Program-made: the position numbers and the translations under genes
The notes under the pieces: model-generated
Seen by the model: only the letters and a program-made list of their open reading frames with translations
Database searches by the model: none
What the model was told of the DNA's origin: nothing
Source: Pseudomonadota bacterium
GTDB taxonomy: Bacteria > Pseudomonadota > Gammaproteobacteria > Burkholderiales > Burkholderiaceae_F
Direction of reading: 5' to 3'
Assembly (NCBI GenBank): GCA_021838715.1
Contig: JAKCCX010000025.1
Location: forward strand, 1-32,639
DNA length: 32,639 bases
Shown here: piece after piece, positions 26,912-30,718 of the stretch
Layout of the letters: each line of letters opens with the position of its first letter
Position numbering within the stretch: position 1 is the stretch's first letter

Positions 26912-28924
<2,013 letters not shown>

Positions 28925-29024
28925 CCCATGCTCGGTCAAAATATCGCGCACTTTCTCAAGATTCGCAGCTAACCCATTCTTTTTGCTGAAAGCCCGTAGG
29001 GATTTTTCGGGGCGGCCGGTGTCC

Positions 29025-29033
29025 TGTGGATAA
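29025..29033 (-). promoter_or_regulatory. DnaA box, perfect TTATCCACA
   Basis: The plus strand reads tgtggataa, whose complement is the E. coli consensus R1-type box TTATCCACA with no mismatch. It is 12 nt from a second box in the same orientation. Confidence 0.65.
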
Positions 29034-29036
29034 CTA

Positions 29037-29045
29037 TGTGGAAAA
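29037..29045 (-). promoter_or_regulatory. DnaA box variant TTTTCCACA
   Basis: Plus strand tgtggaaaa; complement TTTTCCACA fits the relaxed consensus TTWTNCACA. It has the same orientation as the preceding box, 12 nt start-to-start, as in tandem origin boxes. Confidence 0.55.
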
Positions 29046-29110
29046 GCGCGGGAAAAGCGCGCCAAGTCCTCGACAGGCCTGGAATTTGGTGGAATCGCCC
29101 CTTCCGGGAC

Positions 29111-29152
29111 GACTCAAAAAATTCCTTTTATTTCAAGCAATTACGAAACAAC
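29111..29152. other. AT-rich patch, possible unwinding element
   Basis: Forty-two bases with 12 G or C (about 29%), inside a region that is otherwise about two thirds G+C. It contains runs such as caaaaaattcc and ccttttatttc. It lies 65 nt from the tandem DnaA boxes, a placement compatible with a duplex-unwinding element. Confidence 0.45.
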
Positions 29153-29178
29153 TCCAGGGGATTTGCCGCATTTCCCGA

Positions 29179-29208
29179 GGGGAAGGCCCCGGAATTCGGG
29201 GTTTCCCC
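29179..29208. repeat. Nested inverted repeat downstream of hemE
   Basis: Outer arms ggggaa (29179-29184) and ttcccc (29203-29208) flank an inner hairpin ccccg-gaatt-cgggg (29187-29201). It lies 49 nt past the hemE stop and could end hemE transcription, but no T-run follows on the minus strand. It also sits 6 nt from the third DnaA box. Confidence 0.45.
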
Positions 29209-29213
29209 AATTT

Positions 29214-29222
29214 TGTGCATAA
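29214..29222 (-). promoter_or_regulatory. DnaA box variant TTATGCACA
   Basis: Plus strand tgtgcataa; complement TTATGCACA fits TTWTNCACA. Third box in the same orientation, at the hemE-proximal end of the gap. Confidence 0.5.
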
Positions 29223-29256
29223 GTCAAGAAGACGCCGCCCGCGGAATCGGCCCGAA

Positions 29257-30348
29257 TCAAGCCCCGCGGCCCCGCAGACCCCGGCTGTGCGCATGCACCG
29301 TTTCGACCAGCGCCGCCACGGCTTCGGGATCGGTGAACTGCGAAATGCCATGCCCCAGATTGAACACGTGGCCATCCCAGGTGCCGTCGCCGCGTTGCGG
29401 ATCGCCGAACGAATCGAGGATCCGGCGGGCTTCGGCGCATGCCGGCTCGGCACCGGCGAGCAGGGCCATCGGATCGAGGTTGCCCTGCAGCGCACAGCGG
29501 CCGCCGATCCGCGCGCGCGCGCGGCCCAGGTCGACCGTCCAGTCCACGCCGACGGCGTCGGCCCCCGTCTGCGCCAGGTCTTCGAGCCAGACTCCGCCGC
29601 CCTTCGTGAACACGATGCAGGGCACCCGCTCGCCCTCCGCCTCGCGCTGCAAACCCTGCACGACGCGCGTCATCGGGTCGAGCGAAAACGCCCGGAAGGC
29701 GGGATCCGCCAGAACGCCACCCCAGGTATCGAAGATCATCACCGCCTGGGCGCCGGCGCGAATCTGGGCGTTGAGATAGTCGGTGACGGCCCGGACATTG
29801 ACGTCGAGGATCCGCTGCATCAGGTCCGGCCGCCGGTAGAGCATTTCCTTGACCGTGCGGAAGTCGTCCGATCCGCCGCCCTCGACCATGTAGCAGGCCA
29901 GGGTCCACGGACTGCCCGAGAAGCCGATCAGGGGAATGCGACCGGCCAGCGCGCCGCGGATCGAGCGGACCGCATCCATCACATAGCGCAACCGGTCTTC
30001 GGGATCCGGCGCCGCCAGCGCGGCAACATCCGCCTCGGAGCGCACCGGACGCGCGAACCGCGGTCCCTCGCCATCGACGAAATGCAGGCCCAGGCCCATG
30101 GCGTCGGGAACCGTGAGAATGTCCGAGAACAGGATCGCCGCATCCAGGGGATAGCGATCGACCGGCTGCATGGTGACCTCGGTTGCCAGATCCGGAGACT
30201 GGGCCAGCGCAAGGAAACTGCCGGCGCGCTTGCGCGTCGCGTTGTATTCCGGGAGATAACGCCCCGCCTGGCGCATCAGCCAGATCGGGGTGTATTCGGT
30301 CGGCTGGCGCAACAGGGCGCGCAGAAAGGTATCGTTCGTAGGTTTCAC
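29257..30348 (-). CDS. hemE: Uroporphyrinogen decarboxylase
   Basis: Heme-pathway enzyme of 363 residues that removes four carboxyl groups from uroporphyrinogen III to give coproporphyrinogen III. Conserved segments are [29 protein letters not shown] (with the substrate-binding Arg residues), [19 protein letters not shown] with the catalytic Asp, [25 protein letters not shown] and NLGHGI near the end. The start is a GTG at 30348: the family N-terminus (K[14 protein letters not shown]) begins exactly here and no in-frame ATG lies close. GAACGAG upstream is a fair ribosome site. It is divergent from the DUF167 gene with only 19 nt between starts. Confidence 0.96.
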
Positions 30349-30367
30349 GCGCGCTCGTTCACGACAA

Positions 30368-30718
30368 ATGGAAAAACCCGATTTTCGCACGACGACGCTG
30401 CCGATCTGGGCACGCCAGGACGGCAATTTCGTGGTTCTGTCGCTGCGCGTGCAACCGGGCGCCAAACGCACCGCGGCGGCGGGCCCCTACGGCGACCGGC
30501 TGAAGATCGCCCTGCACGCGCCGCCGGTGGACGGCAAGGCCAACGCCGAGCTGCTTCGCTTCCTCGGCGATGCGCTGCACCTGCGGGCCCGGCAGCTTGC
30601 ACTCGCCGCAGGCGCGGCCAGTCGCGACAAGCAGGTCCGCGTATCCGGACTGGAGGAAGCCGGCGCGCTGGCCGAACTCGCCCGCCGGCTCGCCGCCCTG
30701 GGGGCGCCGGCCCCATAA
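30368..30718 (+). CDS. DUF167 (YggU) family protein
   Basis: Small soluble protein of 116 residues. The core [44 protein letters not shown] and the following helix, then [16 protein letters not shown], match DUF167/YggU, a compact alpha/beta fold whose function is not established. The ATG at 30368 lacks a strong Shine-Dalgarno; the frame extends upstream to 30290 over hemE, but family members start near here. It ends two bases before a strong terminator hairpin. Confidence 0.92.

Follow-up and report, generated by a model that had tools for sequence, protein, structure and literature searches.

A putative DnaA-binding control element with an IHF-consensus site, resembling Escherichia coli datA, in the hemE–priA gap of Burkholderiales

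Sites that switch DnaA on or off are known mainly from E. coli and, as far as their accessible parts go, the datA and DARS papers cited here all concern that species. At datA, which lies downstream of glyV-X-Y (PMC10950094, in the part available), boxes 2, 3 and 7 and an IHF site are described as essential, the boxes share one direction and their spacing to the IHF site is important, while looping is thought to join boxes 2 and 3 (PMC5742627 and PMC10380432, in the sections available). DARS2 also requires IHF (PMC4245941), and its boxes 1 and 2 are described as crucial (PMC4585315), each according to the accessible portion of the paper. The available text of one review has the DARS2 spacing conserved in beta- or gamma-proteobacterial species (PMC5742627), where that of a paper it cites speaks of gamma-proteobacteria (PMC4245941); DARS-like sequences are said to occur in many proteobacteria in the accessible part of another review (PMC10380432).

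We measured these sites in the E. coli K-12 record, with datA located by its neighbours. There, box 2 (TTATCCACA) is followed after 65 nt by an inverted IHF site, after another 97 nt by box 3 (TTATTCACA) and 12 nt further on by an inverted box; we infer that TTGTAAACA, 12 nt before box 2, is box 7. The two regions that we take to be DARS1 and DARS2, by their matching box register, each contain a tandem pair of boxes at a 12-nt interval, followed 14 nt beyond by an inverted third box. The original DARS paper is reportedly Fujimitsu 2009. The IHF consensus is WATCARNNNNTTR, with nine fixed positions.

The window, by which we mean the whole stretch of 32,639 bases analysed here, contains three matches to the DnaA-box pattern TTWTNCACA, and all three lie on the minus strand within the gap between hemE and priA. 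The features of this region are as follows.

26912–28924, minus strand: priA, replication restart helicase (TIGR00595 and NF004067), the downstream neighbour
29011–29019, plus strand: position at which some relatives have a fourth box, inverted, in the register of DARS box I (C+14); no box in the window
29025–29222, minus strand: the element in full, from box A through the IHF site to boxes B and C, with a geometry conserved in relatives, reading from hemE to priA
29025–29033, minus strand: DnaA box C, TTATCCACA, in the same orientation as B and 12 nt after it
29037–29045, minus strand: DnaA box B, TTTTCCACA
29114–29155, no strand: AT-rich patch, 28.6% G+C, containing the IHF-consensus site
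29131–29143, plus strand: IHF-consensus site TTTCAAGCAATTA, matching eight of the nine fixed positions of WATCARNNNNTTR, similarly placed in relatives
29214–29222, minus strand: DnaA box A, TTATGCACA, a TTWTNCACA match 34 nt past the hemE stop
29257–30471, minus strand: hemE, uroporphyrinogen decarboxylase (TIGR01464), the longest open reading frame and the upstream neighbour

The gap (28925–29256) measures 332 nt from the hemE stop (29257) to the priA start codon (28924) and has a G+C content of 53%. The earlier note on this DNA had described three boxes in one orientation, two of them 12 nt apart, together with a 42-nt patch of about 29% G+C, and our scan of the window bears out both descriptions. 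The boxes span 198 bp, and the IHF-consensus site, oriented opposite to the element, lies 79 nt from the start of box A and 98 nt from box B. Across the genome, a 2.6-Mb draft in 146 contigs, the pattern has 24 matches against 20 for the same pattern read backwards, so the 9-mer is not enriched. The cluster stands out because boxes are this rare: a simple Poisson estimate gives about 4e-5 clusters of three boxes in 200 bp per genome. Conservation is a stronger argument against chance than this estimate.

Six genomes of the same genus were searched, and hemE was found in four of them. All four keep the box trio: G001, G002 and G005 have it as it stands, and box C of G004 carries a single mismatch. 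More widely, a search of 61 genomes located hemE in 56, and the 30 best loci were excised for comparison of the gap. Automatic alignment of whole gaps was of little use, since their leading lengths differ, but anchoring on box A or box C worked. Of the 30 gaps, 26 had an assignable box A. In 23 of them a single IHF match outscored all others and lay on the opposite strand, 67–79 nt past the start of A; in G021 and G039 the opposite-strand match at that distance tied for best, and G057 is the exception. Further conserved bases between the IHF site and box B gave weak signals. A second set comprised 80 loci from named genomes, the best of 593 confirmed matches. Going by record titles, boxes A and C are in place in loci of Burkholderia, Paraburkholderia, Ralstonia, Pandoraea, Janthinobacterium, Collimonas, Duganella, Hydrogenophaga, Acidovorax (one of two), Thiomonas, Dechloromonas and Azoarcus.

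Once duplicates were removed, the two sets gave 107 distinct hemE gaps. Conservation statistics were confined to hemE gaps found by protein, as sequences found by a pattern favour that pattern. All three spaced features accompany the C box in 59 gaps, two do so in 25 and one in 2, while 21 gaps have no C box, a figure that counts against reading the site as an IHF–DnaA element; among the 18 named loci that contribute to these 21 gaps, priA was detected downstream in 3 and not in 15. At least two of the three features are present in 84 of the 107 gaps and in none of 10,700 resampled gaps (first-order Markov copies of the real ones), in a count that treats related genomes as independent, with kinship uncorrected.

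The geometry inside the element is rigid. The B–C tandem occurs in 79 of the 107 gaps, and in 76 of these an IHF match scoring 8/9 or better lies 30–160 nt upstream on either strand; in approximately 61 of the 76 (ties split) the best match is on one and the same strand, 107–112 nt before C. From the IHF site to box B the spacing in relatives is usually 97 nt. The distance from box A to the IHF site, measurable in 57 gaps, is 65–70 nt in 24, 77–79 nt in 30 and 88 nt in 3, with nothing between, forming a ladder of classes that differ by about one turn of DNA; kinship is uncorrected in these counts too.

These distances invite comparison with datA. Both sites lie just downstream of a gene, and in both a single inverted IHF site (in the window, a consensus match) is flanked by DnaA boxes that point the same way. 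The 97 nt from the IHF site to the next box in datA corresponds to 98 nt in the window and mostly 97 nt in relatives, while the 65 nt from box 2 to the IHF site compares with 79 nt in the window and with 65–70, 77–79 or 88 nt in relatives. This partly matching spacing, and the fact that all three boxes point in the same direction, as do the essential boxes of datA, suggest a datA-like function. Several differences count against it. The window has 79 nt, not 65, between box A and the IHF site; there is no box-like 9-mer 12 nt before box A in the window, the presumed register of datA box 7, and so no box 7 equivalent; the second same-direction box, C, stands where datA has its inverted box 4; and the neighbouring genes are different. 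The B–C tandem and the inverted box seen at +14 in some gaps also resemble the core of DARS.

Judged from sequence, we give about an even chance to the reading that the hemE–priA gap holds an IHF-dependent DnaA-binding control element, most like datA, rather than an origin. Such an element may help to set the timing of replication start. We infer that IHF would bind at 29131–29143 and, as predicted, bend the DNA there, that the bend would form a loop juxtaposing box A-bound DnaA with DnaA at the B–C tandem, and that DnaA would hydrolyse ATP. Both IHF subunit genes score above cut-off in the window's genome, which also encodes an Hda-like protein slightly under its cut-off (188.3 versus 194.8 bits). 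No published description of a DnaA–IHF element between hemE and priA was found in the literature searched, in the parts accessible; in view of the review statements cited above, an earlier mention of a beta-proteobacterial site is possible. A site with this geometry, shared by many Burkholderiales at one junction, would open DnaA control to testing in a second, distant group.

A DARS-like site is a related possibility, in which the B–C core together with IHF would promote ADP release from DnaA and so regenerate ATP-DnaA before initiation. The tandem at 29025 and 29037 matches the 12-nt register of DARS boxes II and III, as found in both DARS1 and DARS2. An inverted box (up to two mismatches) is present at exactly C+14, the register of box I, in 20 of 78 hemE gaps, and in 49 of 127 modules, a set that includes modules found by pattern, compared with 0–3 at each of 12 other offsets tested. 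In DARS2, which requires IHF, the IHF match agrees with that of the element in side and orientation, and the window's genome contains two tandem-plus-IHF modules. On the other hand, box I is absent from the window, and boxes 1 and 2 are the crucial ones in the accessible account of DARS2 (PMC4585315). The DARS2 IHF match lies 87 nt from box III where the element has 97–98 nt, about one helical turn further, and DARS2 has no same-direction box at the place of box A, so that the element carries an extra box beyond the IHF site. We regard DARS-like action as possible though doubtful; for the window, datA-like action is the better guess because A, the IHF site, B and C are present and DARS box I is not. 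A combination of the two is conceivable from the sequence but unlikely: an undivided element ancestral in Burkholderiales that would join a datA-type half to a DARS-type core and shift the nucleotide state of DnaA in either direction, with E. coli datA and DARS2 derived from it by division of labour.

The module is not confined to this junction. We searched 300 genomes of the order for the B–C tandem with its IHF site and found it in 106, against 0 of 300 for the backwards pattern, a control that leaves some base-composition biases unmodelled. At least two matches were present in 25 of the 106, although in G043 and G212 these share one place. A stricter pattern with three boxes was found in 52 of the 300 genomes, and a looser box–IHF–box pattern in 24 of 274 genomes of the class, each with a control of 0. 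Thirty three-box loci were examined: 23 lie beside hemE, 22 of these also with priA, and seven lie beside neither gene. Five of the seven were inspected by eye; two lie between xseA and an exbB/tolQ-type gene, two beside parE and one between other genes. In the window's own genome, a second tandem-plus-IHF module (C31:7028-7145) lies between a TolQ/ExbB-type gene, whose best score is under the family cut-offs, and a divergent xseA.

This distribution bears on the suggestion in the earlier note that the boxes serve autoregulation of priA. Control of priA transcription by DnaA and IHF would fit the presence of box C in 61 of the 64 named loci with priA detected downstream of hemE versus 1 of 16 without, the sole exception sitting near a contig end. 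However, box C stands anywhere from 28 to 318 nt from priA, with no fixed value across 51 loci, and a search of 28800–29400 for sigma-70-like promoters returned no match. The seven three-box loci away from both hemE and priA speak against priA control, as do G045, G051 and G060, in which hemE and priA are not tandem neighbours and the modules found are not beside priA. An arrangement that is rigid and helically phased inside but loose outside argues for a looped protein–DNA complex over a priA operator. The case for priA regulation is thus weakened, and we consider it quite improbable.

The earlier note had also proposed a displaced oriC. DnaA boxes plus an IHF site are indeed common to the element and to oriC, whether of the E. 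coli type or as in the origins of this order; the gap has an AT-rich patch besides, the element is within approximately 22 kb of dnaA and mnmG in G001, and the exact origin of chromosome 1 in B. cenocepacia is described as unclear in the available part of PMC4948915. Nevertheless, relatives contradict the proposal, most directly the complete genome G040, which carries the element intact in its hemE–priA gap at 142846–143042. In sampled stretches its GC skew is negative from 3.45 Mb across the zero coordinate to 1.70 Mb and positive between 1.70 and 3.17 Mb, which puts the switch at about 1.70 Mb and the element, at 0.143 Mb, well away from it. At the switch there is a cluster of six boxes of at most one mismatch (1695210–1695399), four of them exactly TTATCCACA and two differing by one base. 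Its distance is 1.55 Mb to the element, 0.41 Mb to dnaA and 0.12 Mb to mnmG, and it is apparently an origin distant from both of these genes; in the 30-locus comparison, G040 had no box of at most one mismatch after dnaA. The cluster adjoins a YlqF-type GTPase gene.

In two further relatives the sampled skew minimum is closer to dnaA than to hemE. One is G001, a same-genus genome that is complete and in which the element and dnaA are approximately 22 kb apart: the cumulative minimum of the sampled stretches, which omit parts of the region beyond 3.105 Mb, falls near 2.995 Mb, roughly 18 kb past dnaA (2.977 Mb) and 40 kb from the element (2.955 Mb). In G043, where dnaA lies at the start of the record, cumulative skew keeps falling through hemE and dnaA and is lowest approximately 25 kb into the record, in sampling that left out 37 kb before the record end. 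Skew was weak in G014, where KOPS-like counts point to neither dnaA nor hemE, and showed no clear minimum in G057; neither genome was counted in the origin argument. The region after dnaA contains a box of at most one mismatch in 20 of 30 loci and a 40-mer of at most 30% G+C in 24 of 30, and boxes with an AT-rich 40-mer after dnaA are the more usual origin layout. By contrast, in six relatives that carry the element (G011, G012, G014, G016, G028 and G031) the gap contains no 40-mer under 40% G+C, the lowest values being 0.40–0.42.

Nor does the element form a dense box cluster with an AT-rich unwinding element, as an oriC would: it offers three boxes in 198 bp, and its AT patch coincides with the IHF site and is inconstant. 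Unlike an origin, then, it is few-boxed, has no constant AT-rich unwinding element and lies away from the skew minimum where this is testable, at a distance from the origin that ranges from tens of kb (G001) to 1.55 Mb (G040). We judge it very unlikely to be the replication origin. The dnaA–dnaN gap is a candidate origin for the window's genus; in the window's genome this gap (L001 2490-2730, on contig C83) combines an AT-rich run with one perfect box and several partial boxes of the TTATCC type. An IHF–DnaA control element would explain why box searches can point to the hemE–priA region without finding an origin there, and it cautions that DnaA boxes plus an AT-rich patch are insufficient for calling one.

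What stands of the earlier interpretation is a second DnaA-binding locus, which the conserved IHF site and the likeness to E. coli datA and DARS both support and sharpen. The note had framed this locus as a titration site, and boxes that simply tie up DnaA, leaving its nucleotide unchanged, would be in keeping with three consensus-type boxes and with their place approximately 22 kb from dnaA in G001. But titration would work without helical phasing or an IHF site at a set place, and both are conserved in the element, which moreover lies far from the origin in G040; we think passive titration alone improbable. The 1.55 Mb between element and origin in G040 implies that early duplication is no part of the action of the proposed control element there, and since the distance varies so widely between genomes, a gene-dosage role would not be general.

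Some minor observations concern other sites. At the second module of the window's genome (G000:C31:7028-7213), the two boxes stand 12 nt apart and their spacing to the IHF-consensus site is almost that of the window; a weak box-like 9-mer (two mismatches, by eye) lies about one turn nearer than box A would. Two perfect TTATCCACA boxes in opposite orientations, 14 nt apart, occur near the start of a parE-type gene (G000:C115:1928-1950), and by eye a three-box module also stands near parE in G082 and G125. Finally, a run of several TCCACAGGG-like repeats that includes two copies of TTTTCCACA is found at G000:C11:7241-7273 and is unlike the element.
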